In this document: piece by piece, positions 1 through 30,636 of the stretch
Layout: each line of letters starts with the position of its first letter
Position numbering within the stretch: the first letter of the stretch is position 1
Notes under the pieces: model-generated
The model's input: the letters and a program-made list of their open reading frames with translations, nothing else
What the model was told of the DNA's origin: nothing
Databases searched by the model: none
Origin: a virus
Direction: 5' to 3' (one strand)
DNA: 32,115 bases
IMG/VR virus record: IMGVR_UViG_3300027970_000090
Span: 1-32,115 of that record
Translations under genes and position numbers: made by a program

Positions 1-1214
1 TTCTATATACACAAAAATTTAAAGGAGTTGTTCCAAAATTTATTGATAGATTATATCAAGAACGTGTAAATGCTAAAAATAAAATGATTTCCTTGTCAAA
101 GGAATCTAAAAAAATAAAAGATCCTGCTGAAATATCTAAAATAGAAGAAAAAATCATGGATTTAGATACCATACAAAACGTATATAAATTGATTTTGAAC
201 TCTATTTATGGTGTTTTTGGTCAAAAGTATTCTCCGTTGTTTGATATTGATCACGCAGCAAGCATTACCTTAACAGGTCAGGCAGTAGTTAAACAAGCAT
301 CGGAAATTATTTATGATTATGTAAAAAGTAAAAATATTGAGTGTGAAAAATCTGCTATTTACAAATACGGAGATACGGATAGTTGTTATTTTTCTATTCA
401 ACCTATCTTAGATCATTTTAATGTAGAATTATTAGATAATAAAATCACAGATAAATCATATTCTATTATTAATGAAATTGGGGATTATCTAAATAAGGGA
501 ATTATTGAATGGGCTAAATCTGAACTGAAATCAACAGATCCTAGATTTATTTTTAAACAGGAAGCAATCTGTGATGTTGCAGTCTTCATGGAAAAGAAAA
601 GATACATAATGCATGTATTGGAATCGGAGGGCGTCGTTCCTAAAAAACCTTTTAAATATGTTGGAGTAGAAGTTATTCGATCATCCTTTTCAGATGCGAC
701 AAAAAACTTGATTAAAAATGTAATCGAATCTGCAATTTTATCACAAGACAAAGAAGCTTCTAATAAAATTTTAAAATCTGCCTATCAACAATTCTGTAAT
801 TTTCCAATAACGGATATTGCATTTAGAACCAAAATATCTGATATAGAAAAACAGAAAAGAAAGATAACATCTGATGGAAAAATTGGATTAGGCACACCAA
901 TTCATGCAAAAGGTGCTATACATTTTAATAATATGTTAAAACATTTTGATTTGGAGGGAAGATATGAATCTATTGGTAGTGGAATAAAAATTAAATGGTT
1001 TTATCCGTCTAAAAATTCTTTTAATTTTAATGCAATGGCTTTCTTGGATGAGTTTCCTTCAGAATTTAATCCTATTTTTACTATCAATCATTCAAAAATG
1101 TTTGATAAGAGTGTAACTCCTCCTGTAAAACGTCTTTATGATTGTATAGGTTGGCAGCTTCCACAAATTACTTTAGAAACTCATACAAATTTATTTGATT
1201 TATTGGGAGATTAA
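1..1214 (+). CDS. 43: Family B DNA polymerase (T4 gp43-like), 3' part
   Basis: This is the C-terminal part of the phage replicative DNA polymerase. The gene enters from the left edge; the frame is open from base 3, so the ATG at 84 is internal. The palm domain shows motif B (KLILNSIYG, bases 186-212) and motif C with its two metal-binding aspartates (YGDTDS, bases 366-383). The residues before base 84 (FKGVVPKFIDRLYQERVNAK) also fit the polymerase fingers region. The protein ends in LFDLLGD, which resembles the C-terminal clamp-binding peptide of T4/RB69 gp43 (LFDMFDF), and a gp45-like clamp is encoded at 9210. The exonuclease domain lies outside the window. Family assignment is secure from the motifs; the clamp-peptide role is inferred by analogy. 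Confidence 0.95.
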   Translation, partial: LYTQKFKGVVPKFIDRLYQERVNAKNKMISLSKESKKIKDPAEISKIEEKIMDLDTIQNVYKLILNSIYGVFGQKYSPLFDIDHAASITLTGQAVVKQASEIIYDYVKSKNIECEKSAIYKYGDTDSCYFSIQPILDHFNVELLDNKITDKSYSIINEIGDYLNKGIIEWAKSELKSTDPRFIFKQEAICDVAVFMEKKRYIMHVLESEGVVPKKPFKYVGVEVIRSSFSDATKNLIKNVIESAILSQDKEASNKILKSAYQQFCNFPITDIAFRTKISDIEKQKRKITSDGKIGLGTPIHAKGAIHFNNMLKHFDLEGRYESIGSGIKIKWFYPSKNSFNFNAMAFLDEFPSEFNPIFTINHSKMFDKSVTPPVKRLYDCIGWQLPQITLETHTNLFDLLGD

Positions 1215-1222
1215 TTTATAAT
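1195..1222 (+). promoter_or_regulatory. Putative sigma70-like promoter of thyX
   Basis: TTGATT (1195-1200) and TATAAT (1217-1222) are separated by 16 bases. Counting seven bases from the end of the -10 box puts the start site at 1229, the A of the thyX ATG, so the message would be leaderless. The -35 box lies in the last codons of the polymerase gene. No Shine-Dalgarno sequence is present. In such AT-rich DNA the match alone is weak; the shared geometry with uvsX and the helicase gene supports it. Confidence 0.45.
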
Positions 1223-2935: not shown

Positions 2936-3337
2936 ATGGAAACACAAAATAAATTCATCGCAATTCTAGACACCGTTGGCAGAACTATTATTGGAGAACC
3001 TGACAACACACAAAGCACAGCAGAAATTCTAGCCATTAAGAATCCCGTTATTCTTCATGTCGAGCAGCAAGATCAAATGGGCAGAATGTCTGTAAAACTA
3101 TTTCCAATTATTTTCAGAGAGTTCTTGGGAGACAAGACTAGTGATTCTGTTGCCTTTTATAAAAAGACAAATATCACCGAAACAAATGTTGATGCATTTG
3201 ATTATCGTTTGAAATCTCAGTATGATCAGATGTTTAATAAGAACAATGTATTCACTGCACCGTCATCAACACCATCACAACCTTCATCAGGGGAAAAAAA
3301 CTCTCCTGCCATTATAAATCTATTTGATGAGGCTTAA
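2936..3337 (+). CDS. Small conserved-looking phage protein with putative clamp-binding tail
   Basis: This 133-residue protein is not assigned to a named family. Residues 1-75 alternate hydrophobic and polar positions as in a small beta-barrel (GRTIIGEPDNT, AIKNPVILHVEQ, MSVKLFPIIFREFL). An LSm-like fold is conceivable but unproven. Residues 105-125 are a Ser/Pro/Thr-rich linker, and the chain ends AIINLFDEA. That tail resembles clamp-binding peptides such as the polymerase end (NLFDLLGD) encoded just upstream, so contact with the gp45-like clamp is a possible inference. It sits between thyX and uvsX and is followed by an intrinsic terminator, so it ends a transcription unit. No signal peptide or membrane segment is seen. 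Confidence 0.8.
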   Translation: METQNKFIAILDTVGRTIIGEPDNTQSTAEILAIKNPVILHVEQQDQMGRMSVKLFPIIFREFLGDKTSDSVAFYKKTNITETNVDAFDYRLKSQYDQMFNKNNVFTAPSSTPSQPSSGEKNSPAIINLFDEA

Positions 3338-3355
3338 CATTTTAGTTTGACACAC

Positions 3356-3393
3356 AAAAAAACCTAGAAAGTTTTTGACTTTCTAGGTTTTTT
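3356..3393. terminator. Intrinsic terminator between the 133-aa gene and uvsX
   Basis: AACCTAGAAAG (3361-3371) and CTTTCTAGGTT (3379-3389) form a perfect 11-bp stem with a 7-base loop. Flanking A and T runs extend the pairing and supply a U-tract (TTTTTT, 3388-3393). The A run on the other side could serve antisense transcripts, so it may work in both directions. It ends the transcription unit coming from thyX. Confidence 0.9.
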
Positions 3394-3402
3394 GTTTATA
3401 AT
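3375..3402 (+). promoter_or_regulatory. Putative sigma70-like promoter of uvsX
   Basis: TTGACT (3375-3380) and TATAAT (3397-3402) are 16 bases apart. The predicted start is base 3409, exactly the A of the uvsX ATG, so the mRNA would be leaderless. The -35 box overlaps the loop and 3' arm of the preceding terminator. The -10 region (TATAATACT) could alternatively be read as a late-type element. There is no Shine-Dalgarno sequence. Confidence 0.6.
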
Positions 3403-3408
3403 ACTAAC

Positions 3409-4514: not shown

Positions 4515-4543
4515 TTGCCATTTCTAGGAAATAAGCATATGAT
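4515..4543 (+). promoter_or_regulatory. Putative sigma70-like promoter of the helicase gene
   Basis: TTGCCA (4515-4520) and TATGAT (4538-4543) have a 17-base spacer. The predicted start is 4550, the A of the ATG, again leaderless. It lies in the 43-base gap after uvsX. A short inverted repeat TACCA-ACA-TGGTA (4543-4555) spans the start codon; only RNA reading through from uvsX would contain both arms. Confidence 0.5.
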
Positions 4544-8719: not shown

Positions 8720-9217
8720 ATGCAAAATCGAGAAGAAGTTATTGAAGCTGCAATGCTCGCACGTATGGTTGGTTCACACCTTATCGGTGTGGACCAACTG
8801 ACCACAGAGCGTTCTAATAATCCAGCAAATAAAATTAACATGGAGAACTTTGTTGCTCCATTGTTAGGCAAACAAACACATTCACAGACCTTTATTGATC
8901 CGAGATCGGCTTCTCCTGAAATGGTAAAGGCATACGAAGGCTTGAATGAATTGGCACTGAGATCTGTTCCAGATCCTATCATGAGTCACCCACAACCAAA
9001 TACAGCACCATTAATGCCGCAAGTAGCTAATTTAGCGATTCACACACCGGAACCCATTAAAAATATGCAACACCAACCATCAGATTCGTTGAATACTTTT
9101 GATGGATATTCTTGGCGTAAAGAAGATATCGGTTCTATTAAAAATTCATTGAAAAATATTGACAAAACTTTGGCGAAGATGTTTACTCTTTTAAAAGAAA
9201 AAGAAACTAATGTCTAA
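8720..9217 (+). CDS. Uncharacterised protein between gp32 and clamp genes
   Basis: This 165-residue protein is not recognised. Residues 1-45 look helical (REEVIEAAMLARMVGSHLIG). The middle (60-125) is rich in Pro, Asn and Gln and likely disordered. The end (SIKNSLKNIDKTLAKMFTLL, about 138-157) forms an amphipathic helix that could be a coiled coil or partner-binding segment. It starts one base after the gp32 stop, with AAGGA about eight bases upstream (one of the few Shine-Dalgarno-like sequences, inside the gp32 end). It overlaps the clamp gene start by eight bases. Tight packing between gp32 and the clamp suggests a replication-associated role, but no function can be assigned. Confidence 0.8.
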   Translation: MQNREEVIEAAMLARMVGSHLIGVDQLTTERSNNPANKINMENFVAPLLGKQTHSQTFIDPRSASPEMVKAYEGLNELALRSVPDPIMSHPQPNTAPLMPQVANLAIHTPEPIKNMQHQPSDSLNTFDGYSWRKEDIGSIKNSLKNIDKTLAKMFTLLKEKETNV

Positions 9218-9959
9218 ATTAATACCAATCCCAAAATCATTTTTAGAACGACTATTAAAACCTGTAAATAGATTAACAGAAAGTTGTATTTTAAAAACCG
9301 ATAATCAAGGTTTATATACTATATGTTCTTCACCGGACAGTACTGTTATCTTATATGCTAGAGTAAAGCTTCCTAATGATGTTGAGAATCCTGTTAGGTT
9401 GAATTTAATAAACGTAAAAAAACTTTTGTGTGGATTGGATTGTTTAGGAAGTGATGGAGAATTTTCGATAGAATATACAGAAAATAACATAAAATGTTCT
9501 AATACTCTGGATGGGGAAAATACTCATTTTAAATATCACTTGGTAGATGATAGTGTCATTCGAGAATGTCCTGTCAATATCAATAAGATTTCTAAATTGA
9601 ATTTTGATACAGAGTTTTTAGTATCTAGCAATAAAATAAAACAGATAATGGCTGGATATGCATTTGCTTCTGATACAACAAAAATATACTTTTATAGCAA
9701 AGATGATGGTGTATATGCAGAGATTAATGATAAAACATTATCAAATGTGGATAACATAACATTAAAAGTTTCTAATACTTTTAGTGGAGTAGAAATTACA
9801 GAAGCAGTTCCTATAAATACTGAAGTTTTTAAAAATCTTGCAACTTGCAGAACTGACGTTAAAATAAAAATTAACAATGAATACAAAGTATTTGTCTTTC
9901 AAAATAAGGATGATAACGATGTAGAATTAAAATATATCGTATCAGCCCTTGTAAAGTAA
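9210..9959 (+). CDS. 45: Sliding clamp, DNA polymerase processivity factor (T4 gp45-like)
   Basis: The trimeric clamp tethers the polymerase to DNA, and in T4 it also activates late transcription by sliding to RNA polymerase. The 249-residue protein (T4 228) shows the repeated clamp pattern. It opens with a helix (IPKSFLERLLKPVNRL), then ILKTDNQGLYTICSSPDSTVILYARV. The interdomain region carries LNLINVKKLLCGLDCL, and the second half repeats with FLVSSNKIKQIMAGYAFAS. The C-terminus ends in VELKYIVSALVK. It overlaps the preceding ORF by eight bases and so is co-transcribed. Clamp-like tails in the polymerase and the 133-residue protein are potential partners. In T4 the clamp sits with the loader genes 44/62; these are not in this window. 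Confidence 0.88.
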   Translation: MSKLIPIPKSFLERLLKPVNRLTESCILKTDNQGLYTICSSPDSTVILYARVKLPNDVENPVRLNLINVKKLLCGLDCLGSDGEFSIEYTENNIKCSNTLDGENTHFKYHLVDDSVIRECPVNINKISKLNFDTEFLVSSNKIKQIMAGYAFASDTTKIYFYSKDDGVYAEINDKTLSNVDNITLKVSNTFSGVEITEAVPINTEVFKNLATCRTDVKIKINNEYKVFVFQNKDDNDVELKYIVSALVK

Positions 9960-10708: not shown

Positions 10709-11467
10709 ATGTCTAATAGCTTTGTAAATTTAAATTTATTTCCGAGTGCAACCGCAACAAGCGGGTATAGAACTTGGCTTAATGAAATTGTTAAAACCGC
10801 AGGAATAGAAGATTTTGATCCTGTTTTAAAACCAATTAAAACACCCAATGGATATGTTAATGAAGATGGAACTCCCTATAAAGAATTTGATTATCTGCAA
10901 ACTATTCCAGACTTTTCATTATTGAGCGGAGTTGGAGATTATAGATATTCTTTGGGTCATATGGTTTCTTCTGCATTAGAAACCTTTCTTCCTAGAATTT
11001 TATTATATACAGAAGTAGCACAGGCAGGTGGATGTCAGGTTATAGAAAATTATGTTTGTGATGCCGATGGCGTTCCTATTAAACAATTAGAAACTACATG
11101 TCCGGTGGGTACAACATTGGACATAATAAATCCACAGGAAGTTTTAGACTTTGTATTTACAAAATATAATACGAAAAAAACAGAAGACATTCAAGCTTTT
11201 TATAATTATATAAACGATAATTACATTAAGAATGGATTTATAGTTGAAATTTGTCAAATTGATAAATTTCCATATTTTATTTTTTTAAGATTACGAAAAG
11301 AAAATGAAACAAAATATATAAAATATCATTACGATGATAGAACCGATGTATCTATTTTGTTCAAAACTCCTATTATATACATAGCACAAAAAGATGCAAC
11401 AGATTCTGATATATTAGAAGCATTGCAAGCAGAAATTCCCTTATATAATACTCGCCTAACAATTTAA
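10709..11467 (+). CDS. Uncharacterised protein at the end of the + strand block
   Basis: This 252-residue protein is not recognised. Residues 1-60 begin like a virion or baseplate-associated protein (SFVNLNLFPSATATSGYRTW). It has a hydrophobic helix (SALETFLPRILLYTEVA, about 89-105), four cysteines between about 109 and 131 and one more near 182, and a C-terminal half of alternating strands (FIVEICQIDKFPYFIFLRLR). It is the last gene before the convergent tail operon and overlaps the end of the spike gene by 12 bases, with no terminator between them. That position, facing baseplate genes, hints at a structural role, but this is only context. Confidence 0.82.
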   Translation: MSNSFVNLNLFPSATATSGYRTWLNEIVKTAGIEDFDPVLKPIKTPNGYVNEDGTPYKEFDYLQTIPDFSLLSGVGDYRYSLGHMVSSALETFLPRILLYTEVAQAGGCQVIENYVCDADGVPIKQLETTCPVGTTLDIINPQEVLDFVFTKYNTKKTEDIQAFYNYINDNYIKNGFIVEICQIDKFPYFIFLRLRKENETKYIKYHYDDRTDVSILFKTPIIYIAQKDATDSDILEALQAEIPLYNTRLTI

Positions 11468-13453: not shown

Positions 13454-13477
13454 ATTTTTATAAACATATTTAGTTGT

Positions 13478-19190: not shown

Positions 19191-21047
19191 TTAAAAAACT
19201 ATAGTCGGATGATAGGTGTCCATAGAAGACTTATCCATTTCATCAGCCTTTAAAGGCAACATACGATCTGGACCATCACTTTCCAATAACCATGTAGTAA
19301 GAGCCGCCCTATCATCTGAATATAAATCAAATCCAGAGGCTGTATCCATGTCACCAACATATGAAAATGGAGTATTTACGAAAGGTTTTCTAACAATTGT
19401 TTGTCCTCCTCCTATTAATAAAGGACTATTTTTAATAATCTCCTTATTATCTGAAATTGGAAAAATTTTCATCGGCCTACCTTGATCGTCTATGTCTAAA
19501 ATATTAAAATATTTTCCAACCAATGAAGGATCAAGAATAAATAATGCCCAAATAAGTCCAAACACTCTATCATCTAAATATTTATCAGATTTTTTTGAAT
19601 ATGTAAAATTTGGAAGTCTAATGAAATTGTCTATTTCTAATAATGTTTCAATATCATTTAATTTCACTGCCTTTAAACTATTAACCCAATATCTAAAATT
19701 TGTTATTCCTTTATATCTGGTATTTGTATGATTGTGTATACCAAATCTATTAGCATTGTTATAATGCTTACTAAATCCCTCAAAATGATAGGAAACAACA
19801 TTTTCATAGTTGTGAGTTTGGCACAAAACATCTAAAATTTGTTGACCATTGTTATTATTTTCAACAAGAATCGGAGGTCTTCCCCAATCCTGTAAAATTC
19901 CCATCAAACGAGTTCCAAAATGAAATGGATTTATATTATTTGAAGAAAAAAGAGCTACTTGTTGAATATCCTGTAAATTTGATACGTCTAATATCTGTGC
20001 AACTGAATTTGATCTTCCAATTCCTTCTCCAACGTCAACTCCTATGACATAGAAACTTTCCGGATTGGGCAATTTAAATACTTGATAGGCTCCATCTTCC
20101 AAAGATAATATAGGTTCTGAACAACTAGCCTTTAATTCGGCTAGATATTCTTCATCGATAACGCCCTTTCCAGGTTCGTGGAATTTATTGGCATATTCTT
20201 GATCAAAATCATCTTTAGATCCCATGAGAGCCAGTGTTTTTCTTTTCCACTCTTCATCTCGATCTGGAACATCCCACCAATTAACAATTTCTAAGTGCCA
20301 TTCACTGTTTTCTTCTTGTGCGCTTTTATAAAGTTCATAAAATTTATTATCAGTTCCATTTGGAGTACTAATAACAACAATTTGCGACCTTTTCATCGAT
20401 GAAATAATTGGAATAGCAGACTTCCACAATTCTTTCATCAAATCATTAGGACAATGAGCCATCTCATCAATAATCAAAAGATTACTTGTAGTTCCGCGAG
20501 GTCCAGATGATGATGTTGTACTAACAGTTATTGCTGAATCGTTTCCAAGATTAAAACCATCTTTTCTCCAAGATTTTATAGGAGGTTTTAAGTATATAGG
20601 AAGTTGTTCATATGCCATTTTAATTCTAGCAAATATTTCCTTAGCAGTTGCTTCTTTATTTGCTACAATTGTTATTCGCTTATCAGATTGAAAACATACT
20701 AACCATAATGCATAAATAGTTATTGTTGTAGTTTTTCCGCTTTGTCTTGAGCTAAGAATAACATTAAATCTATTTGATTTAAATGCCTTCAGTAGAGTTT
20801 TTTGATACTTATAAAGTTCTATTTTCCTTTTACCATCTTCGGTTATTATGTAAAAATGACTTTCTGCAAAATGCAAAATACTTTTGACGCAAAGCCTAAG
20901 CTCTGCTTTCATGTCATCCGTCCATTTAAACAATGCATCCTTACGAAGGATGTTTTCGTTTCCTTGATAGAACTTTCCGTCTACAAGAATATCATCTATA
21001 TCTAAATCATCTAATGAATTTTCTTCTACTTTCTTTTTTCTGGGCAT
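19191..21047 (-). CDS. 17: Terminase large subunit (T4 gp17-like)
   Basis: The terminase pumps DNA into the prohead and cuts the concatemer. The 618-residue protein (T4 610) has an ATPase domain with the classic motif SSRQSGKT (99-106), Walker B LLIIDEMAH with Asp194 and catalytic Glu195, and coupling motif STPNG (228-231). The C-terminal RNase H-like nuclease has VIGVDVG (Asp338), ILVENNN (Glu396) and YLDDRVFG (Asp492/493), matching the T4 catalytic acidic triad. All key residues are present. It lies within the baseplate cluster, unlike T4 where 17 sits beside 18 and 19. It has its own late-type promoter element in the 30-base gap upstream. No small terminase subunit is recognised in the window. 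Confidence 0.96.
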   Translation of the reverse strand: MPRKKKVEENSLDDLDIDDILVDGKFYQGNENILRKDALFKWTDDMKAELRLCVKSILHFAESHFYIITEDGKRKIELYKYQKTLLKAFKSNRFNVILSSRQSGKTTTITIYALWLVCFQSDKRITIVANKEATAKEIFARIKMAYEQLPIYLKPPIKSWRKDGFNLGNDSAITVSTTSSSGPRGTTSNLLIIDEMAHCPNDLMKELWKSAIPIISSMKRSQIVVISTPNGTDNKFYELYKSAQEENSEWHLEIVNWWDVPDRDEEWKRKTLALMGSKDDFDQEYANKFHEPGKGVIDEEYLAELKASCSEPILSLEDGAYQVFKLPNPESFYVIGVDVGEGIGRSNSVAQILDVSNLQDIQQVALFSSNNINPFHFGTRLMGILQDWGRPPILVENNNNGQQILDVLCQTHNYENVVSYHFEGFSKHYNNANRFGIHNHTNTRYKGITNFRYWVNSLKAVKLNDIETLLEIDNFIRLPNFTYSKKSDKYLDDRVFGLIWALFILDPSLVGKYFNILDIDDQGRPMKIFPISDNKEIIKNSPLLIGGGQTIVRKPFVNTPFSYVGDMDTASGFDLYSDDRAALTTWLLESDGPDRMLPLKADEMDKSSMDTYHPTIVF

Positions 21048-21053
21048 TAGGAA

Positions 21054-21061
21054 TACTTATA
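21054..21061 (-). promoter_or_regulatory. Late-type promoter octamer before the terminase gene
   Basis: TATAAGTA on the - strand lies six bases (TTCCTA) before the ATG at 21047. It matches the T4 late consensus TATAAATA at seven of eight positions. T4 spacing would start RNA one base before the ATG. A weak 5-bp inverted repeat (21044-21048 with 21074-21078) encloses it and includes part of the start codon. Confidence 0.6.
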
Positions 21062-21077
21062 AAAATATATAAAAATG

Positions 21078-21434
21078 CTATCTATTGATTTGACTATTCA
21101 ATTCTGAAATAATAGAAGAAACATACTTTGCTTTTAATATTTTCAATTCCGTTCCATTTTCTGGCATTTTTACTGGATTTTGAATTTGATTATAAGAACA
21201 TACCAACCACCACAAATCCATAGTATTATAATATTTATGTGATATTAAATGCCATGTATCATTATATGTAGTATAATAAGAATCTTCTACGTCTGAATTA
21301 TTTGCTGGAAATAAATTAATAGCTCTTAATAAATTATAAAATTTAAAATCATTATTATCGTTATAGATATTAAAAAAATTTTCATATCTATACATTGAAA
21401 TATTTGATAAATCTGTAAAGGAATTATGTTTCAT
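21078..21434 (-). CDS. 53: Baseplate wedge protein (T4 gp53-like)
   Basis: gp53 locks baseplate wedges around the hub. This 118-residue protein (T4 196) carries the LysM-like signature of the family: YNDTWHLISHKYYNTMDLWW followed by LVCSYNQIQNPVKMPENGTE. The first 50 residues include aromatic and Asp/Asn-rich stretches (YRYENFFNIYNDNNDFKFYN). It is shorter than T4 gp53, apparently a minimal version. It lies between the gp48-like gene and the terminase gene, with nine bases to the former. The ATG is at 21434; no ribosome binding site is visible. Confidence 0.8.
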   Translation of the reverse strand: MKHNSFTDLSNISMYRYENFFNIYNDNNDFKFYNLLRAINLFPANNSDVEDSYYTTYNDTWHLISHKYYNTMDLWWLVCSYNQIQNPVKMPENGTELKILKAKYVSSIISELNSQINR

Positions 21435-21443
21435 GAGTTTTTA

Positions 21444-22439
21444 TTATTTTTTGCTAAAAGGGTTTAGATAATTAGTAGCATCAGCAGCAATATTTCCAAC
21501 CTCCTTAACTACATTACTTGCGGCATTAACAGTCGCAGTAGCTGCTTCTGGGGTTGTTAATGCTAAACTTTTAATAACACTAATTCTTTGATTAGGATTT
21601 GCTGCTCCTCTATATATATTAGTACTTTCTGGAATTAATGAAGTTAATGTTATAGTAACTTTATATGCTTCGGGAATTAATGAACTAGATCCATTTCCTA
21701 TATCTATTTCTCTAGTTGCTCCTATACTTTTTATCGAATAATTACTAACATAAGCAGCTGGCATAAAAACTCCTCCTCCTCCTTCACTTTCTACTGTATA
21801 TATTTTAGGAGGAATGTGAGTTAAATATGTAGTTCTTATTTTTAAATTTTGAAGAGCAAATAATTGTACAAACCAAAAATTATCTATTGTTTTTTTTATG
21901 TCTACTGTATTATATAAAGGAAATGAAATGCTAACGGATTTATTATTAGAAGATTCAAATGTTTGCGGAGTCTCATAACTAAATCCACTAGTAATAAAAC
22001 TTGCAATAGAATCACTTTTTCCTATAGCGGTTTTAATAAGACCTCCAAATACTGGCATTTTTTCAAGGTCTAATGGTTTCCAAGTGTTTACTATGTCTCC
22101 ATTCAAGGAATCTCCGGGTTTTATTAAATAAGGAAGTCTATAGTTAAATCCGGTTGCAATTCCTTCGTATAGCATACCATATGGATCGTCTTGTTTTTTT
22201 AAATCTGCTATATTTTTAAATAAATTTAGAATATTTTGCGTCCATTTTCCGTATGGTAATGTATATTCTTTTAAAGAAATTGCAGGAACCTCGGATATGG
22301 CATTTACTGTCATATTATTTTTCCATTGAAAATCCTTTATAATATCTATTGTTCCTTCCACTGGCGAGACGAGCGGCCATGAGAATTTAATGCCATTAAA
22401 TTGTATAGGCTGATCAGTTATTTTAAAAAATCTGTTCAT
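21444..22439 (-). CDS. Baseplate tube-cap protein (gp48-like)
   Basis: This 331-residue protein is probably the baseplate component that starts the tail tube (T4 gp48 364 residues, gp54 320). The C-terminal half has the tube-type layout: SISFPLYNTVDIKKTIDNFW, LFALQNLKIRTTYLTHIPPK, then AAYVSNYSIKSIGATREIDI and EAYKVTITLTSLIPESTNIY. T4 gp48 also ends with a strand set of this kind. The C-terminus is Ala/Asn-rich and may be flexible. It follows the tape-measure gene after six bases, which fits with a tube-assembly role. Which of gp48 and gp54 it corresponds to cannot be decided from the sequence. Confidence 0.62.
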   Translation of the reverse strand: MNRFFKITDQPIQFNGIKFSWPLVSPVEGTIDIIKDFQWKNNMTVNAISEVPAISLKEYTLPYGKWTQNILNLFKNIADLKKQDDPYGMLYEGIATGFNYRLPYLIKPGDSLNGDIVNTWKPLDLEKMPVFGGLIKTAIGKSDSIASFITSGFSYETPQTFESSNNKSVSISFPLYNTVDIKKTIDNFWFVQLFALQNLKIRTTYLTHIPPKIYTVESEGGGGVFMPAAYVSNYSIKSIGATREIDIGNGSSSLIPEAYKVTITLTSLIPESTNIYRGAANPNQRISVIKSLALTTPEAATATVNAASNVVKEVGNIAADATNYLNPFSKK

Positions 22440-22445
22440 ATTTTT

Positions 22446-24743
22446 TTAATTCCTAAAAGTGTTCGAGTAATTTCTTGCATTATATTTTTGTCTATATTCA
22501 CGCACTTCATCTCTTTCTCCAGAAACACTTCCCTTAGAATTGCCACCAGTTATAACAGTTGAACTTCCTTGATTATCAGATCCGTTTGATATTGCTCTTC
22601 TTAGTTCTTCTATGCTTTCGGGAGAAAGACTGGTTGTTTTTGGAGTTGGTGCTGGAATTGGCAGTGCTTCTCTCAAATCTATATTAGGAGGAGGAGTAAC
22701 AGGTGTTGGAGTTCCTATGGGAATCCATTTTTTGGGTGTTTCTACCCCAGTTGGACGATTAGAATCCACTTCAACACCATCTACTGTGTAAAATTGATCG
22801 TTTTCTCCACCCATTTCATTATTTTTACTATCATCCGCCATTGTAGATGCAGATCCATTTGAATCCACTTCAACACCATCTACTGCGTAAAATTGATCGT
22901 TTTCTCCACCCATTTCATTATTTTTACTATCATCCGCCATTGTAGATGCAGATCCATTTTTGTTAAAATTTTGATTGGTTAAAGCTTGTTCCGATGCTTG
23001 TTGTTTTGATTCTTGATCTTGTTCGTCTAAAGAATCTAAATACATACTAAGAGGAATTTGTATAAATGCCATTTCCGGACCTAATAGATATAAAAGATTG
23101 CTAGAAGCAGAAGCCAATCGTAACCACATTCCTTTATAATCCCCGTCCATTCCTCTTTTAATAGCCATTCCCAATTCATAAAGACCACCAAATAATGGAA
23201 TTCTTTTTAAAAACGTTCCCAAAGCACCTCTTCCGAATAATGCTCCTATTTTAGTAAGATTTCCTAGTTTAGATGCTACGGCACTGCTTGCAGAACCAAT
23301 ACCTCTTAAGATCGTTCCCATTATGCTAGAAGATTGTGCAACCGCTTTAATAGCATTTGTTCCTCTTGTGGCAAGAGCAGCAACAGAACCTGCAAGAGCA
23401 GCACTTCTTGTAACTAATCCCTTGGGTAAAATATTTAAAATAGCAGAACCAGCAGATGATGCAACTTTAGAAACTCCCGAACCAATTGCAGCCCATCTAG
23501 GTGCTACTTTTTTTGTTATTTGGCTACCAACTGCTACCGCACGTTTACCTGCACGTTTTTTCATTAAAAAAGCACCCAACGAACCAACACCTAATCCACC
23601 ATATAAAAACAGGTTTTTATAAAAATCCATTCCTCCCGGTTTATCAACTCCCATTGCGGAAGAAGCAACGTCAATAGCATCACTGGCAACTTTGGTACCA
23701 GTTAATTTATCTATATATTTTCCAATAGATTCTCCGAAAAATCCCAAAGCCAATCCTGCACCGCCTATTGCCAATGAAAAGCTTGAAAGAGGAAGTATTA
23801 GCTTACGAAGTATAAACCTAGCAAACGTGCCAACAATCGCTAGCAATCCTACGGTTATTCCTAAACCCGCAAGTCCTGCCAATGCCATTCCTCCTCCACC
23901 AGAACCGCTTGGTTTATCAGAAATTTCTTTGAGTTTTTTATCGCTTTGATTTAAAGTTTCATCAATAGCTTGTAAAATTTTTTGTTGGTCTTTAGCATTT
24001 ATTTTTAAAGAATTAAAAATTTCTGAAAGAGATTTTGGATCTAAAGTAACTTTAAGATTTCCATATGGATCTTTTTTATACAATTCTTTGCTAAATGGAT
24101 CTATTTGTTGTTTTTTTTCGATAGATTTTTTATAAAAATCCATCATAACATCCAGAGATAATCCAGTTTTTTCAGCGATTGTAAATAGCTTTGATTGATC
24201 TATAGTAAGCTTATCAGATTGATTGCTTATTAATTGATCAAATCTTTCTAATATTTTTTCTAATGCTGAATTAGAGGAATTATTATCAGATACTTCATCT
24301 GATTTATTTATATTTTCTTGTCTTTGTACAAGATTATTTTGAATATTTTCCGGAAATCCTAACGGATTTGTTATTTTTCTTATAGTTTCTTCATTGATTT
24401 TATCTAAACTATTTTTTATTTCATTCGAAACTTCTAAACTTTTAGATAAAATTTCTTTTCTTATAACATCTAGGGGAGTAGTATCAAGATTTTCAGACGA
24501 AATTCCTAATAATTTGCTTATTAATTCTTTATAATTTGTTTTTTTTGCTTCATCTGCAAGTGATTCTTTTGCCTTATATGCAATATTTGCAGCTTCGGCG
24601 TGTGTATTTTGGAATGAATCTTGAATATTTTTTGATGTTGAGGATGCTCCTAATAAAAGCTCTAAAAATATTTTAGAGTCTATAGACCCAGCAACAGAAA
24701 TTCCTTGATTTTTTAGAAAATTTTCTAACTCTTCCATGCTCAT
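22446..24743 (-). CDS. Putative tail tape measure protein
   Basis: The tape measure sets tail length and is ejected with the DNA. This 765-residue protein (T4 gp29 590) has a helical, charged N-terminal region (about 1-275). Then come glycine-rich hydrophobic segments (285-345: MALAGLAGLGITVGLLAIVG; LSSFSLAIGGAGLALGFFGE) and further Ala/Gly-rich helices (375-565) capable of entering membranes. The C-terminus is low-complexity. Residues 596-628 and 629-661 are near-identical 33-residue repeats. The gene follows two gp26-like genes and precedes the tube-cap gene, the usual place for a tape measure. It has its own late-type promoter, and an inverted repeat pairs its start codon with upstream sequence. 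The ATGs at residues 1 and 3 are both possible. Confidence 0.72.
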   Translation of the reverse strand: MSMEELENFLKNQGISVAGSIDSKIFLELLLGASSTSKNIQDSFQNTHAEAANIAYKAKESLADEAKKTNYKELISKLLGISSENLDTTPLDVIRKEILSKSLEVSNEIKNSLDKINEETIRKITNPLGFPENIQNNLVQRQENINKSDEVSDNNSSNSALEKILERFDQLISNQSDKLTIDQSKLFTIAEKTGLSLDVMMDFYKKSIEKKQQIDPFSKELYKKDPYGNLKVTLDPKSLSEIFNSLKINAKDQQKILQAIDETLNQSDKKLKEISDKPSGSGGGGMALAGLAGLGITVGLLAIVGTFARFILRKLILPLSSFSLAIGGAGLALGFFGESIGKYIDKLTGTKVASDAIDVASSAMGVDKPGGMDFYKNLFLYGGLGVGSLGAFLMKKRAGKRAVAVGSQITKKVAPRWAAIGSGVSKVASSAGSAILNILPKGLVTRSAALAGSVAALATRGTNAIKAVAQSSSIMGTILRGIGSASSAVASKLGNLTKIGALFGRGALGTFLKRIPLFGGLYELGMAIKRGMDGDYKGMWLRLASASSNLLYLLGPEMAFIQIPLSMYLDSLDEQDQESKQQASEQALTNQNFNKNGSASTMADDSKNNEMGGENDQFYAVDGVEVDSNGSASTMADDSKNNEMGGENDQFYTVDGVEVDSNRPTGVETPKKWIPIGTPTPVTPPPNIDLREALPIPAPTPKTTSLSPESIEELRRAISNGSDNQGSSTVITGGNSKGSVSGERDEVREYRQKYNARNYSNTFRN
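22762..22959. repeat. 99-bp tandem duplication in the tape-measure gene
   Basis: Bases 22762-22860 and 22861-22959 are two adjacent 99-bp copies differing at one base (TGTG against TGCG), giving Thr or Ala in the protein. Being a multiple of three, the duplication keeps the frame and doubles a 33-residue acidic segment containing NGSASTMADD and FYxVDGVEVDS. Near identity at synonymous positions means it is recent or maintained by recombination. Confidence 0.95.
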
Positions 24744-24770
24744 ATAGAATACTTAATCTAAAATGAGCAT
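24736..24770 (-). promoter_or_regulatory. Start-codon hairpin with a late promoter in its loop (tape-measure gene)
   Basis: On the - strand, ATGCTCAT (24770-24763) and ATGAGCAT (24743-24736) are exact complements around a 19-base loop. The second arm begins with the tape-measure ATG. The loop contains ATTAAGTA (24757-24750), a late-type octamer six bases before the ATG. Transcripts from upstream genes would carry both arms and hide the start codon; RNA begun at the octamer would lack the first arm. T4 gene e uses this logic. The pairing is directly seen; the regulatory role is inference. Confidence 0.6.
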
Positions 24771-24777
24771 TTCTATT

Positions 24778-25623
24778 TCAACTACCAACAAATAACATAC
24801 TATCAACTTCGATAATCTTGGAAACCTCTTCGTATTTTACGGTAGATAAATTGTTAATTTCACCTCTCCATTTAACAACTTTTTCTAAAATATTTTGAAC
24901 CAATGCGGCAGGAAGTTTTTCAACAAATTGAATTTTTTGTGGAATATGCATACTTTGATAATCAAAATCAGTTCCATTTAACTTTACATGTCTTATATAT
25001 TTTGAAGTTTCGCCTAAAAATGCCCCTGTTATTATGTTTTTAATTTCTTCAACTTCATTGGATTTTTTTTCTTTTCCGTAGATATAAGAATCAAATTTAT
25101 ATTCTTCGCTAAATGTTGGAATATCTATCAATACTTCCAATTCTACAGAATTTTTAGAAAAATTTATAATTTCAGCCTGTGGATGTGTATATTCTTTGAA
25201 ATTATTTAATACATCTGAGATATTCACATCACTTTCTATTTTCGGTTCTTCTTGAAATAATACTTTTATCTTATCAGATATTTGATATCGCATAGAAAAT
25301 GCTATAGAATGTTTGTCAATTGTTGTAAATTTTTCTACAATTTCTTTATCTTCTGAGCAATTAGAACATACTATCTCATAAAAATATTTTGAAAATGTAG
25401 ATTTCAAAACCGTTGAGTCTATAGCAGATTCTATTAAAGTTTTTTGCTGTTTTGCTGTAATTTCTTGTATTTTAACGCTTCTTTTTAATGATGGAATCCA
25501 AACATCACTGGAAAAAGATTCTTTTGATATATTATTTAAAATGTTTAAAGCTTCATTGAAATTTATTTGCGTTGTGGTTTGTTCTGACATAAAACTAATT
25601 ACTTCATCACTCTCCAAATTCAT
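24778..25623 (-). CDS. gp26-like baseplate/tail assembly protein
   Basis: This 281-residue protein resembles the T4 baseplate protein family that includes gp26. After about 40 residues it has VWIPSLKRSVKIQEITAKQQ, KYFYEIVCSNCSEDK and FTTIDKHSIAFSMRYQISDK, the sequence layout of that family (IPSLK..V, cysteine-bearing helix, D...YLxFxxR). The C-terminal part is longer than T4 gp26 (208 residues). It lies immediately before the tape measure, consistent with a chaperone for it. The start at 25623 overlaps the previous gene by 17 bases; an ATG at 25590 (residue 12, MSEQTTTQ) would remove the overlap and is a fair alternative. No enzyme motif is seen. Confidence 0.65.
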   Translation of the reverse strand: MNLESDEVISFMSEQTTTQINFNEALNILNNISKESFSSDVWIPSLKRSVKIQEITAKQQKTLIESAIDSTVLKSTFSKYFYEIVCSNCSEDKEIVEKFTTIDKHSIAFSMRYQISDKIKVLFQEEPKIESDVNISDVLNNFKEYTHPQAEIINFSKNSVELEVLIDIPTFSEEYKFDSYIYGKEKKSNEVEEIKNIITGAFLGETSKYIRHVKLNGTDFDYQSMHIPQKIQFVEKLPAALVQNILEKVVKWRGEINNLSTVKYEEVSKIIEVDSMLFVGS

Positions 25624-26563
25624 CCATTAAATCTTCTAAATTAGATGAATTTTCGTTATTATTTGAAGATTCGCTCTCCGATTCTTTTCTGTTTTTAATT
25701 TCTTCTTCAATAAAAGAACAAAAAACTCTTCTGTCTGAAATTGAAATATTGTCTACATATAAAGGATTTATGTTTTTAGATGCTAATGCATAATATTCTT
25801 GATATATATTTTTTAAAGGTTCTGTAAAAAATAATCTTATGATATGTTGATATGATTTATTGTATAGATTGAATTTAAAATAATCCATTTTTTTAAGTCC
25901 AAAAAGATTTTTCTGTGCAATATTTTCAATACTATTAAATATAAAGGTTTGTATTTTTGTTTTTACTGAAATCGGCAAACTTTCGTATATTTCTAATTTT
26001 TGTTCATGATTAAATTCTTTTAAATCTATTTTATATTCTTTTGTTGAAATTGTTTTAATATATTCTTGTATAGTAGATAATATATGTATGTATATATTTT
26101 TTTCTTCATTTAAAAACAAATTTTCAGATTTTACAGAAGGCCAGTCCAGTGTTATAGTAAAATCCTTAACTTCCAAAATAGAATTTTTCATACAATCGTT
26201 TGCCGCATCGAACAAAAGTTTCATAAAAATATTTAAATCTATAGAAATTTTTGAGTTTTTAGTAAACTCGTCTTCTGAATTTTTAAATACTAATTCGATT
26301 ATACTTCCTATGCTTAAAATTCTAAGTTTTGTTATGAATAAAATATATTCTATTATGTTTAATTCATAAAAATCTTTTTTATTTTCTATACAATTTGAGA
26401 CAATATCTTTTATTACTTTTGCATATTCAAGATATGTGTCTTCGTTTTCTGGTAGAAGAATATTAGCCTTAGACAGTATTAACTGTTCCTTAGAAGATAT
26501 ATCTCTATAAAAAATTCGAGTCCCTGAAAAGGGCATCTCAACTGAATATAAAAAATATTCCAT
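25607..26563 (-). CDS. Second gp26/gp51-like tail assembly protein
   Basis: This 318-residue protein is weakly like its downstream neighbour. It has a strand and helix start (IFYRDISSKEQLILSKANIL), a helix with cysteine (VIKDIVSNCIENKKDFYELN) and then IIEYILFITKLRILSIGSII, the same order as the gp26-like family. The remainder is helical and lysine-rich, ending in a Ser/Asn/Glu-rich acidic tail (ESESESSNNNENSSNLEDLM). T4 has two such baseplate hub genes, 26 and 51. This pair, overlapping by 17 bases before the tape measure, may be tail-assembly chaperones. The ATG is at 26563, nine bases after the tube-like gene. Confidence 0.55.
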   Translation of the reverse strand: MEYFLYSVEMPFSGTRIFYRDISSKEQLILSKANILLPENEDTYLEYAKVIKDIVSNCIENKKDFYELNIIEYILFITKLRILSIGSIIELVFKNSEDEFTKNSKISIDLNIFMKLLFDAANDCMKNSILEVKDFTITLDWPSVKSENLFLNEEKNIYIHILSTIQEYIKTISTKEYKIDLKEFNHEQKLEIYESLPISVKTKIQTFIFNSIENIAQKNLFGLKKMDYFKFNLYNKSYQHIIRLFFTEPLKNIYQEYYALASKNINPLYVDNISISDRRVFCSFIEEEIKNRKESESESSNNNENSSNLEDLMDEFGE

Positions 26564-26571
26564 TATATATT

Positions 26572-27525
26572 TTACTTAATAGTTTTTCTAACTAACATGC
26601 TATTTTTATAACCCGGATCATAAGTAAATTTAGGAGCAGCAGGAACAACCGAAAACCCTCTTGTAGTTACAATTCCATTATTATCTTTAGTGACAGCAGT
26701 ACCCGTTTCAAAAATAGGAGAACCATCAGCACCGTAAAGAGTATTTGTATATTTAAATCCTCCAAGTTCTCGGTTAGAACTGATATCTACCTGAGATTTT
26801 TCGGTTATATTTTCTCCACTAGCCATATTATTATAATCCTCCGCAGCAATACTATAAGAATCATATACAAAATCAACACTTATAGTTTGTAAAGAAGGAG
26901 AATTATAACCATCGGAATAACCTCCTACGCTTACAGGTGCTATATTATAGAATCTTATTAGTTTTCTTTTAAGCGGTTTGGTATATGCTCCTGCTTTTCC
27001 CATAAAAATTACATCTAATTTATTGGCTTTTACGTTATATTGAGGATCTCTTCTGGTTACAAATCCAAAATGTCCAACCAAAATCATCCAAGGACGAATA
27101 ACAAAATCAACAAAAGAAGCATTGGTTTCATTAAAAGTTATAGTCAATTTTCCAAATGGTTTTCTGCTACTCATAGTAACCGGAGCTTGAAATCCCGCAT
27201 ATTCTAAACCCGCATTAGAAGCATTTATACTATCGCTTGGAATTGATATTTCAGAAGCAAAAACACATGCTAAAAATTCATGACCCTGTTGATATTCATC
27301 AGATATTAAAGATTTAACAACAGAATCTTGTATGCCCCAAGAATCTTCAAAGCTAGAGCCGCTTTCGTATCTCCTAACATTATCGATAAAAGATTTTTTT
27401 AAAGCAAGTATGTCTTTAAATGGTATGGTTAAAAACCACTGACTCCCAACCGCTATAGAACTAGGCCATTTACTTATTATATCTAAATAATAAGGTATTG
27501 GACCGTTTAAATTTTCAAAAGCCAT
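26572..27525 (-). CDS. Second, larger tail tube-like protein
   Basis: This 317-residue protein has tube-fold features. An N-terminal helix and strand region includes GSQWFLTIPFKD, and a central stretch contains LTITFNETNASFVDFVIRPW and ILVGHFGFVTRRDPQYNVKA. Then come LDVIFMGKAGAYTKPLKRKL and a strand with ISVDFVYDSYSI. The end (about 230-317) is a looser region with Gly, Asn and Thr. It directly follows the main tube gene and has its own late-type promoter. It could be the T4 gp54-type tube initiator, or an additional tube or baseplate layer. No close match to gp54 sequence is evident, so the role is open. Confidence 0.6.
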   Translation of the reverse strand: MAFENLNGPIPYYLDIISKWPSSIAVGSQWFLTIPFKDILALKKSFIDNVRRYESGSSFEDSWGIQDSVVKSLISDEYQQGHEFLACVFASEISIPSDSINASNAGLEYAGFQAPVTMSSRKPFGKLTITFNETNASFVDFVIRPWMILVGHFGFVTRRDPQYNVKANKLDVIFMGKAGAYTKPLKRKLIRFYNIAPVSVGGYSDGYNSPSLQTISVDFVYDSYSIAAEDYNNMASGENITEKSQVDISSNRELGGFKYTNTLYGADGSPIFETGTAVTKDNNGIVTTRGFSVVPAAPKFTYDPGYKNSMLVRKTIK

Positions 27526-27548
27526 ATCAAATACTTATGTATGATATG
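27523..27548 (-). promoter_or_regulatory. Start-codon hairpin with a late promoter in its loop (tube-like gene)
   Basis: On the - strand, CATATCA (27548-27542) and TGATATG (27529-27523) are exact complements around a 12-base loop. The ATG at 27525 lies in the second arm. The loop contains CATAAGTA (27539-27532), a late-type octamer six bases before the ATG. The arrangement repeats that at the tape-measure gene: read-through RNA from sheath and tube would sequester the start, while RNA from the octamer would not. Confidence 0.55.
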
Positions 27549-27561
27549 TTATTATCAACAT

Positions 27562-28128
27562 TTATCTAGTAAGAAGCGGAGATGATTCTGGCTGAACCCA
27601 GTATTGATATGCAATTGTTGCCTGTGTAGTAACAATGTCGCCACCAGTGGTTACGTCAAGATTATAATCACCAATGTTTACACAATAAGCACCGATTAAA
27701 TTATAAACTCTTATAACCTGACCACCCTTGCCCATAAGTGCAAGACCAATATTTCCTAAATCTTTTACTTCATAAGCACCAGTGCTTGTTGCATCATCAA
27801 ATGTTCCGCGAGTCCAGAGTTCAAGCTTAGAACGAATGGATACGTCTTGCGGCATTCTAAAGGTTACATTCCAAGAATCACTTGAAGGATAGCTGGCGGT
27901 TCCGGGAACATTGAAGGAAAGTCCCATAAAAGGGACCGCAATGGTTTTAATCGCACGTTTAGGAAGACTTGTTGTAGTAATATATACTAAGTCTTGCTGA
28001 TCAAAAACAATGTTTGTTGCTCCAGATGATATATAAAGAACTCGGAAAAGATTTGTTCTTGCGAAATCTTTGTTGATAGCATTCTGAAAGAAGCTATTGA
28101 TATCTTGGTTTTGAAATAGGTTTGCCAT
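27562..28128 (-). CDS. 19: Tail tube protein (T4 gp19-like)
   Basis: This 188-residue protein (T4 gp19 163) forms the inner tail tube. It has the typical order: N-terminal FQNAINKDFARTNLFRVLYI, central VYITTTSLPKRAIKTIAVPF with the GLSFNVPGTASYPSSDSWNV long loop, then the helix with RSKLELWTRGTFDD and final strands (TTQATIAYQYWVQPES). It directly follows the sheath gene, as in T4, with a 21-base gap. A late-type octamer GATAAATA lies six bases before its ATG at 28128. There is no Shine-Dalgarno sequence, though the protein must be made in quantity. Confidence 0.88.
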   Translation of the reverse strand: MANLFQNQDINSFFQNAINKDFARTNLFRVLYISSGATNIVFDQQDLVYITTTSLPKRAIKTIAVPFMGLSFNVPGTASYPSSDSWNVTFRMPQDVSIRSKLELWTRGTFDDATSTGAYEVKDLGNIGLALMGKGGQVIRVYNLIGAYCVNIGDYNLDVTTGGDIVTTQATIAYQYWVQPESSPLLTR

Positions 28129-28134
28129 ATAATA

Positions 28135-28142
28135 TATTTATC
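28135..28142 (-). promoter_or_regulatory. Late-type promoter octamer before the tube gene
   Basis: GATAAATA on the - strand is followed by TATTAT and the ATG at 28128, the same six-base spacing as three other late genes. It matches TATAAATA at seven of eight positions. T4 geometry would start RNA one base before the ATG. It lies within the 21-base sheath-tube gap. Confidence 0.55.
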
Positions 28143-28149
28143 TTTTAAA

Positions 28150-30546
28150 TCATCTAATAAGCTCGTTAAAATCAACACCTGTTCTGGTTGCAATGAAATC
28201 AGCTAAAATAAATTCAGCAGTTCTGACTGGTTGAATGTATATAGAAAGTCTGAGTTCATTGTTATCAATTACATCAGGAGTATTGTTACGTTCATCGCAA
28301 ACGATTCTATAGTCATATAAACCATCATTGTTTTTAGCTTGATTGAATATAGGAGCTAAACCATTAACCAAACGAGATCTGGTTGTGAATGTGTTAGGCT
28401 CGAATACATAGAATTTTAATAAACTTTCTGTCGTTTTTTCGAGTGATAAGAAGAGTCTTCTTACATTGATTCGATCAAATGCGGAAGGTTTAGTAAACAA
28501 TGTTTTCTGACCAAATATTACAAATCCATCACCGGGAAAGAATGCAATTGGATTGACATTTATTCTCGCAAGTAAATCACGTTGTTTTTGTGTAGGATTG
28601 ATTCCAACATCAGTAAGATTTGTTAAAACACCACGATTGAATCCAGCAGGAGCAGACCAAGGATATGCTATTTGTGAAGATGTTGCAAACACTGCGGCAA
28701 CATAACCAGAAGAAGGAATCCAAACTTGCTTGTTAGAAGCGGTATCATTTGTTTTAATCCAGTTTCCATAAACCGCTGCATAGCTTGAAACGCTTCCAGC
28801 ATAGAGGTTTTTTAATGGCCAATAGGTATCACTAGAAAAGACATAATTAGCATTTCTAGATACTTTTGAATCCGCTCCTTGAATGAAGATATATTTAAGA
28901 GGATCAGCAATGAAAACATGATCCTTTCTTGTATTATCAGCAAATGCTACAAATTGATTTGCAATGTCTTTATAATCCGCACATATTCCTGCAACCGGAT
29001 TATTTGTTTGATCTTTAAGTATTGTTGTATCAACAAAATAAGTATCATCATAGATATACGGAGCATTCACAGTAGAAGTTCCATACAAAGCAGTTTTTCT
29101 TGCTTTAGCACCTGTCCAGATGGTTCCTAATCCAGCTTCAGCAGTTACGTCCAAATCAATATCAAGATTATCGATATTATTTAAAATTCTTTGAAGTTTT
29201 GCTGGAACATTTCCAACATCACCCGCAACCGAATTTGTATCTGAAATATAAACGCCCTGTGAGAAAAGACTTTTAGTTTCATTAGCAGTTCTTACAGTTT
29301 TGGCTGGTAAACCATCATCATTAACCCAATCTCCAGTATTTGAAATATAAGGATTTATTACAACCTTAATCTTATTTGATGCTCTGTTTGCTATATTTTC
29401 CAAGAAGAAAGTATCAGCAGGACCAGCATTTCTATCATTTTGTGTACGTTTGCTATACAATGAACCAGTATAGCCCTCTGATACAATTGCGTCAATAACA
29501 ACCGTGTCCTGTGCATAAATAGAGGTACGAAGCTTAAACACCATAAGAGTTAAGCAATCATTATAATAGCTAGTTCCAAAATCAATTCCTATTGGAAACT
29601 GTTCAACTGTTTGAGAAATACTATTTCCTGCGGATGAAAATGATTGAGTCAGAGTAAAGTTTAATCTTGAGCTTGGAACTGTTACAAATGTTTGATAATT
29701 TCCATTAACAATTGTATTACTTGCTTTTACGCTTGTTATACAAGTAAAATCAGTTGCAGGGTTGCTATTGGAATTATCAGAAATAGCAATGTAATACCCC
29801 TCATAGAGATTATTGACAGAGGTTTTTACAGAATCGATGACAACAATACCGCCATAATTTTGAAGATCTTTAAAACTTTTGATATTGACAGCACTATAAG
29901 AATTTCCCCAAGCAACATTATTTTCAACGATATCCAAATATTGTTGATCAGAGAGCAAAATAGATTTAGGAGACAATACATCATATGATGTAGAATCCGT
30001 ATATGAAAGATTGGTGGTTGTTGCGGTATATCCGCTAATAACGTCTATGATTGTATTTTCATAAACAGCCTCTACTGATGTGAGACTGAGATAAGTAGTA
30101 TGTGAAATTTCGGTATCATATCCCAAATATACAGGATATGAATTAGTTCCATCAGAACTCAATGCAATATTTCCACTAACTGTACTTAATGCAGCTATTT
30201 TAGTTGTAGTTTTTCCTTGAAGAGGATATACTAAAGCAGTGTATTGATTGGAAAATCCTGCTCCTGCACCAGATCCGTATGGCATTCTTGTTACCAAAAG
30301 ATTAGTAGGAGATTGTGTTAAAAGTTGACGAGCAGAATGATAAAGATATCTTTCAGCTGCATTTGTTGGACTTCCGAACACTTCTTCATATTCAGAAAGA
30401 CTTCCAACATTGATAATCTCATCAGTTGGTCCTTGGCTGGCAAACCCTGTGATAAAGGTATTTGTTGCTCCAGTTGGTCTTGCAATAAGGCTAATATCTA
30501 CTTCGTTAATTTGTACACCGGGAGATGCTATGGTTCTTGTTGACAT
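28150..30546 (-). CDS. 18: Contractile tail sheath protein (T4 gp18-like)
   Basis: The sheath contracts to drive the tube through the host envelope. The 798-residue protein (T4 659) begins with the conserved sheath start (RTIASPGVQINEVDISLIAR) and the domain with GFASQGPTDEIINVGSLSEY. It ends with the conserved C-terminal core (INVNPIAFFPGDGFVIFGQK; FDRINVRRLFLSLEKTTESL; ELRLSIYIQPVRTAEFILAD). The middle (about 130-420) is a larger, variable surface domain, explaining the extra length. It is the first gene of the leftward late block. Its upstream region holds TATTATAAATT directly before the ATG and a possible late octamer a few bases further back; the exact element is unclear. Confidence 0.96.
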   Translation of the reverse strand: MSTRTIASPGVQINEVDISLIARPTGATNTFITGFASQGPTDEIINVGSLSEYEEVFGSPTNAAERYLYHSARQLLTQSPTNLLVTRMPYGSGAGAGFSNQYTALVYPLQGKTTTKIAALSTVSGNIALSSDGTNSYPVYLGYDTEISHTTYLSLTSVEAVYENTIIDVISGYTATTTNLSYTDSTSYDVLSPKSILLSDQQYLDIVENNVAWGNSYSAVNIKSFKDLQNYGGIVVIDSVKTSVNNLYEGYYIAISDNSNSNPATDFTCITSVKASNTIVNGNYQTFVTVPSSRLNFTLTQSFSSAGNSISQTVEQFPIGIDFGTSYYNDCLTLMVFKLRTSIYAQDTVVIDAIVSEGYTGSLYSKRTQNDRNAGPADTFFLENIANRASNKIKVVINPYISNTGDWVNDDGLPAKTVRTANETKSLFSQGVYISDTNSVAGDVGNVPAKLQRILNNIDNLDIDLDVTAEAGLGTIWTGAKARKTALYGTSTVNAPYIYDDTYFVDTTILKDQTNNPVAGICADYKDIANQFVAFADNTRKDHVFIADPLKYIFIQGADSKVSRNANYVFSSDTYWPLKNLYAGSVSSYAAVYGNWIKTNDTASNKQVWIPSSGYVAAVFATSSQIAYPWSAPAGFNRGVLTNLTDVGINPTQKQRDLLARINVNPIAFFPGDGFVIFGQKTLFTKPSAFDRINVRRLFLSLEKTTESLLKFYVFEPNTFTTRSRLVNGLAPIFNQAKNNDGLYDYRIVCDERNNTPDVIDNNELRLSIYIQPVRTAEFILADFIATRTGVDFNELIR

Positions 30547-30636
30547 AATTTATAATACTATTTACCTTTCATTAATATCCATTTAATTATTTTTTTTATT
30601 AAGAAATTTTTAACATACAGTATAATTATATATAGA
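30547..30636. promoter_or_regulatory. Divergent promoter region between sheath and the 146-aa gene
   Basis: These 90 AT-rich bases are the longest gene-free stretch in the window. Leftward, TATAAATT and AAATAGTA (30563-30556) are candidate late elements for sheath. Rightward, TATAAT (30621-30626) would start RNA near 30633, four bases before the ATG at 30637; a weak TTAAGA at 30599-30604 is 16 bases upstream. Individual boxes are uncertain in this base composition. Confidence 0.45.

Follow-up and report, generated by a model that had tools for sequence, protein, structure and literature searches.

Do the mRNAs of a T4-like phage begin at the start codon itself? The question is raised by a 32,115-bp viral contig with a guanine-plus-cytosine (GC) content of 31.8%, which is the whole of IMG/VR record IMGVR_UViG_3300027970_000090 and is called the window here. 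It carries T4-like genes for DNA polymerase, uvsX, a DnaB-like helicase, gp32, terminase, the tail tube, the sheath and PhoH. On its - strand, octamers of the T4 late-promoter type lie a few bases upstream of late genes. The original prediction took that distance to be fixed at six nucleotides (nt) and proposed that late mRNAs start at the ATG or about one base before it. We argue that the early as well as the late mRNAs of this lineage are very probably leaderless or nearly so, judging from where promoters of both kinds are placed.

Late-promoter octamers and the start codon

The four - strand octamers behind the prediction are all present, each exactly six bases before an ATG. They are listed here with the other octamers found before window genes.

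21054..21061, - strand: late-promoter octamer TATAAGTA, 6 nt before the ATG (21047) of the large terminase gene (19191-21047)
24750..24757, - strand: octamer ATTAAGTA, 6 nt before the ATG (24743) of a tape-measure-like gene (22446-24743)
27532..27539, - strand: octamer CATAAGTA, 6 nt before the ATG (27525) of a tube-like gene (26572-27525)
28135..28142, - strand: octamer GATAAATA, 6 nt before the ATG (28128) of the tail tube gene (27562-28128)
30559..30566, - strand: octamer GGTAAATA, 12 nt before the ATG of the tail sheath gene (28150-30546), overlooked in the original prediction
26573..26580, - strand: octamer-like ATTAAGTA, 9 nt before the ATG of a baseplate-hub gene (25607-26563)
13467..13474, - strand: octamer-like ACTAAATA, 13 nt before the ATG of gene 11456-13453

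A fixed distance holds at the four genes it was read from, but the last three entries depart from it, and the constancy was partly a matter of selection. Orthologues tell the same story. The tape-measure-like gene has 6 nt in 4/4 distinct orthologues, and the tube-like gene has 5-7 nt in 22 of 25 distinct upstream regions. The range is wider at the tail tube (5-13 nt in 27/27 distinct upstream regions), the sheath (7-15 nt in 20/20 distinct orthologues, mode 12) and above all the terminase, where spacings vary most (5-16 nt in 39 of 45 distinct upstream regions, mode 10). Gene 11456-13453 has TAARTA in 17/22 orthologues, mostly at 4-7 nt. The hub gene is a weaker case, with an octamer in only 6 of 17. 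As to the window by itself, WTAARTA-N6-ATG occurs 5 times where 1.34 are expected, and of 100 dinucleotide shuffles a single one came up to that number. The remaining match, at 24296-24311, falls out of frame within the tape-measure gene and is probably chance. That gene also contains a tandem duplication of about 100 bp (window 22758-22959, - strand).

A table of octamer-to-ATG distances across whole genomes had been set as the test of the idea. A 70.7-kb contig of the same phage, 99.98% identical across 32,118 bp, stood in for the window. There are 107 terminase relatives in IMG/VR, on contigs of up to 226 kb, and the best 80 of them (62-100% identity) were retained. The terminase search found no near cultured phage, the top match being about 35% identical. 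The phage group with this architecture is uncultured, widespread, mostly freshwater and T4-like. Ten related contigs of 70-226 kb were used, namely the longer contig of the same phage and nine relatives, with 2,141 open reading frames (ORFs) in which ATG starts were called mechanically.

The table peaks clearly at 5-7 nt, and the lower edge of the peak is sharp. At spacings of 0 to 13 nt the counts of TAARTA are 3, 11, 12, 10, 12, 83, 132, 73, 49, 43, 35, 29, 36 and 24 over the 2,141 starts. Beyond 13 nt they are at background, about 7-11 per position by 16-17 nt. The counts at 5-7 nt exceed those of all 200 column-preserving and all 200 first-order Markov shuffles in each of four genomes; in one of these 43 were observed and the shuffles gave 9.8 (maximum 19). 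An unbiased 6-mer scan for position-locked words upstream of starts ranks TAAATA first and TAAGTA third. The signal also survives one count per family, the median spacing being 5-9 nt in 35 of the 53 octamer families. Genome compaction was rejected as its source, as the peak is kept among the 635 genes whose upstream free space is 45 nt or more. A gene caller could favour spacings of 3, 6, 9 and 12 nt, as the TAA may act as an in-frame stop. This artefact was rejected too: 5 and 7 nt are also high, 3 nt is not, and the same peak appears when the ATGs downstream of every TAAGTA are counted without gene calls (37, 55 and 26 at 5, 6 and 7 nt, versus about 12). That call-free peak is specific to ATG; GTG, TTG and CTG give hardly any peak or none.

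The octamer behaves like a promoter in its distribution among genes. It is present at 10/10 tube, 10/10 sheath, 7/8 gp21 and 8/10 terminase genes, and at 0/10 each of the genes for DNA polymerase, uvsX, helicase and SbcD. Families tend to be all-or-none, with an octamer at nearly every member or at no member. Only 4% of genes overlapping the previous gene have one, against 41-56% of co-directional genes with a gap of 10-59 nt and 33-42% of divergent genes. Operon-internal sets of orthologues have few or none (for example 2/44 and 0/18). The base preceding TAARTA is A in 54%, and the first octamer base is free; G is frequent as the fourth base of TAARTA. Among the columns upstream of the octamer there is no conserved -35 block.

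The pattern is absent from T4 and from other T4-like phages. The late region of T4 has its spacing peak at 27-28 nt and Shine-Dalgarno (SD)-like words before 35 of 49 starts (2 in the control). There is no peak at 5-13 nt in phiM9, phiM12, cyanophage S-8S56 or marine virus AG-345-L05, and SD is above control in all four. A sister clade, reached via a terminase about 45% identical, does have it: among 88 distinct starts TAARTA lies at 5 nt in 20, at 6 nt in 9 and at 4 nt in none, and the median spacing is 5 or 6 in 15 of 25 octamer-bearing gene clusters. In this clade (L195-L225) ACTTAC, the reverse complement of GTAAGT, is also enriched about 35 nt upstream of starts, which suggests back-to-back divergent late promoters.

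Two promoter classes, one predicted transcription start

The lower edge becomes meaningful when it is set against the geometry of T4. The T4 late octamer starts at -13 (PMC2988020), so that its last base is at -6 and five more bases separate it from +1. By this geometry transcription would start on the A of the ATG when the spacing is 5 nt, and the leader is the spacing minus 5. The observed distribution climbs abruptly exactly at 5 nt. The octamer spacing bottoms out at 5 nt, is commonest at 6 and trails off to about 13; if the geometry carries over, leaders of 0 to about 8 nt are predicted (about 7 at the sheath). The proposal that late mRNAs start at the ATG or about one base before it thus gains from the peak, from which we infer such starts, but has to be widened to this range of leaders.

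The original prediction treated this as a peculiarity of late genes, and on this point it has to be corrected. Replication genes have sigma70-type boxes at the matching distance in place of octamers. Three are in the window.

1195..1222, + strand: sigma70-type early promoter TTGATT-16-TATAAT, 6 nt before the ATG (1229) of a ThyX-intein gene
3375..3402, + strand: sigma70-type early promoter TTGACT-16-TATAAT, 6 nt before the ATG (3409) of uvsX
4515..4543, + strand: sigma70-type early promoter TTGCCA-17-TATGAT, 6 nt before the ATG (4550) of the DnaB-like helicase gene

The uvsX promoter is conserved in most relatives. Before octamer-less genes TTGAC.-N15-19-TA..AT occurs 67 times at 4-9 nt where 2.8 are expected, with 3 at 5 nt, 33 at 6 and 20 at 7. 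For a sigma70 promoter, whose -10 hexamer ends at -7, zero leader corresponds to a spacing of 6 nt. The edges of the two promoter types differ by one base, and both types predict the same transcription start. In both classes the -10 box lies about 10-12 nt before the start codon, which is the criterion for leaderless genes in PMC3160421.

Two observations concern the early genes themselves. An intrinsic terminator following gene 2936-3337 overlaps the uvsX promoter (window 3343-3408, + strand): the TTGAC of the -35 lies within its loop and 3' stem and its T-tract runs into the -10. Its stem has double changes in 9 of 17 pairs among six relatives. The gene at window 1229-2917 (+ strand) encodes a ThyX thymidylate synthase split by an intein that carries an HNH endonuclease.

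The machinery for a late promoter is there at least in part. A homologue of the late sigma factor gp55 (phrog_234, E about 1e-27) is found in 9/9 records searched; its gene lies outside the 32-kb window, but on the 70-kb contig of the same phage. The homologues (L086:7400-8038, + strand, and others) have a charged N-terminal extension. The C-terminal clamp-binding motif of T4, SLDFLYE, is missing, as all ten homologues end before its position. Since they are without this C-terminus, we do not claim that late transcription is clamp-activated. The window does encode a candidate clamp.

9210..9959, + strand: PCNA-like sliding clamp, probable gp45 counterpart, by AlphaFold2 fold match

Its AlphaFold2 model has a predicted local distance difference test score (pLDDT) of 86, and all 50 listed PDB matches are PCNA clamps (best E 1.4e-12). 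It is recognised by fold only; the clamp profiles phrog_223, PF09116 and PF02916 did not pick it up. No match to the gp33 profile phrog_254 was found in 9 records, in a search that had no positive control and for a protein that diverges strongly.

Translation, the capsid exception and rival readings

If transcription does start there, translation would largely do without the ribosome-binding site on which T4 relies. The general lack of SD sequences noted at the outset is borne out, SD-like words being near background (45 versus 20 in the control, in 954 genes). Operon-internal genes start near the preceding stop codon, also without SD and commonly with T (U) at -1.

The major capsid gene is different, and the stress laid on structural genes of high demand has to be corrected. 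This gene, for which the highest demand is expected, has a 38-71-nt upstream gap with a hairpin whose sequence differs between genomes. SD is present in 8 of 9 relatives, as AGGAG or AGGAGG in most, and no octamer lies near the start. It is the only family with SD in almost all members (for example G002, L090-L100, 144152, - strand). In the gap that follows the scaffold gene, the hairpin and an ATCCA-type conserved sequence both precede the SD. This suggests that the host ribosomes are able to use SD.

The scenario we propose is as follows. Late promoter octamers of the gp55 (T4-like) type would set the transcription start on the initiator AUG or a few bases ahead of it, and early promoters of the host sigma70 type would be positioned likewise. 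Promoter-proximal genes would then be expressed from SD-less mRNAs with no leader or an ultra-short one, probably by direct binding of the ribosome to a 5'-terminal AUG. Operon-internal genes would probably be translated by coupling or by SD-independent initiation, with the structured leader and SD of the major capsid gene as the exception. The promoter positions are read directly; from them we infer the actual RNA 5' ends and the route of translation.

Several points weigh against this scenario. Spacing varies from gene to gene, and for some of them the predicted leader is as long as about 8 nt. Some ATGs are the choices of a gene caller, though those of the window are backed by orthologue alignments, in which they are conserved starts. 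Raw pattern counts over whole genomes are barely above a reversed-pattern control (44 versus 37 in one genome). Because that control is nearly as high, the raw count is uninformative and only start-anchored counts discriminate. U is at -1 at 829 of 1,652 octamer-less genes, so the start context is partly translational. Finally, read-through from upstream operons could give leadered copies of the same genes.

One can take this last point further and suppose that the promoters are real, but that read-through supplies most late mRNA, leaving leaderless copies as a minor species and leadered translation dominant. The late genes of the window do form a compact co-directional block in which many have no promoter of their own. 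However, read-through copies would lack SD too, given the near-background level before these genes, and conservation of the octamer extends to individual genes and divergent pairs. We consider this improbable. A little less probable still is that the motif is no promoter at all but an A/U-rich, Kozak-like initiation context on leadered mRNAs, as in the Bacteroidota. The starts are indeed SD-less and A/T-rich from -12 to -1, with U at -1 at most genes, octamer or not, and SD-less Flavobacterium has a Kozak-like A at -3 and -6 (PMC6847099). Yet operon-internal genes also need to be translated and mostly have no octamer, which is likewise rare at overlapping genes. Families moreover tend to be all-or-none, replication genes have sigma70-type boxes at the matching distance instead, and the leaders of F. 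johnsoniae average 33 nt. Chance, AT-rich composition or a gene-calling artefact can be dismissed: the GC content is 31-32% and raw octamer matches are not enriched in the window (12 WATAARTA found, 23 expected), but the position-specific shuffles, the call-free count, the high counts at the off-register spacings of 5 and 7 nt with no rise at 3, the five control phages and the second clade all refute it.

The leaderless or near-leaderless scenario is the one we retain. We would more tentatively extend it, with a little less than even confidence, to say that a deep lineage of the T4 superfamily gave up SD-led translation genome-wide, with both regulons leaderless or near-leaderless and SD with a structured leader kept essentially for the capsid. 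Were this true, such a lineage could favour a state of the host or ribosome that prefers initiation at a 5' AUG, with capsid output controlled separately. On the retained scenario itself, the T4 type of promoter appears to have merged with the start codon throughout the genomes of an environmental lineage that is widespread, and early promoters converge on the same start through a different geometry. This would be a natural system for leaderless translation at the scale of virion production, with the capsid gene as a built-in contrast. Gene-start prediction in metagenomic phages would be affected, since SD-based callers may misplace starts.

Plausible hosts would be narrowed to bacteria that translate leaderless mRNAs well. 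WhiB, a marker of actinobacterial hosts, had no match in 9 records, and the tRNA genes gave no host clue. The sole relative in a genome scan is a 45%-identical terminase on a contig of a Verrucomicrobia metagenome-assembled genome, which is too weak for host assignment. On that contig (L187:777-2522, 5111-12245) the T4-type terminase (GC about 40%) adjoins bacterial glycosyltransferase and methyltransferase genes (GC about 58%). Either the contig is chimeric or a phage fragment has been inserted, and as a hint of a host it is weak.

Comparison with known systems

No report of this architecture was found in the open-access papers searched, most subscription papers lying outside the search. Judged from sequence, it appears to be a new variant of the T4 promoter arrangement. 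T4 late genes are the textbook case of a promoter followed by an SD-bearing leader. The likeness to T4 late promoters, which depend on gp55, gp45 and gp33, is considerable: a -10-like octamer of the TATAAATA type, no conserved -35, an AT-rich stretch downstream, a gp55 homologue, a PCNA-like clamp, and octamers at tail, portal and packaging genes. The differences are in the spacing (5-7 nt, not 27-28) and in SD (near background, not at 35/49 late-region starts). The octamer also differs from that of T4 in its free first base and frequent G, as does gp55 in its N-terminal extension and missing C-terminal clamp motif.

The promoter consensus of the Bacteroidota differs from the TTGAC/TATAAT early promoters of this phage group. 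The two share the lack of SD and an A/U-rich start context with Kozak-like initiation (PMC6847099). However, F. johnsoniae mRNAs are mostly leadered (PMC6847099), and here the capsid gene uses SD.

In leaderless genes of the Actinobacteria and Deinococcus-Thermus a TA-like (TANNNT) box precedes the start by about 10-12 bp (PMC3160421). As in those bacteria, a -10-type box lies too near the ATG for a leader and there is no SD. Unlike them, the present case is a T4-like phage in which two promoter classes, one of the host-sigma type and one of the phage-sigma type, occur together.

Judged by terminase and sheath, the nearest annotated relatives include marine cyanophages and the Sinorhizobium phages phiM9 and phiM12. 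They have the T4-like core genes and octamers before some genes as well, but the octamers found in them lie at least 14 nt from the ATG and their SD is above control.

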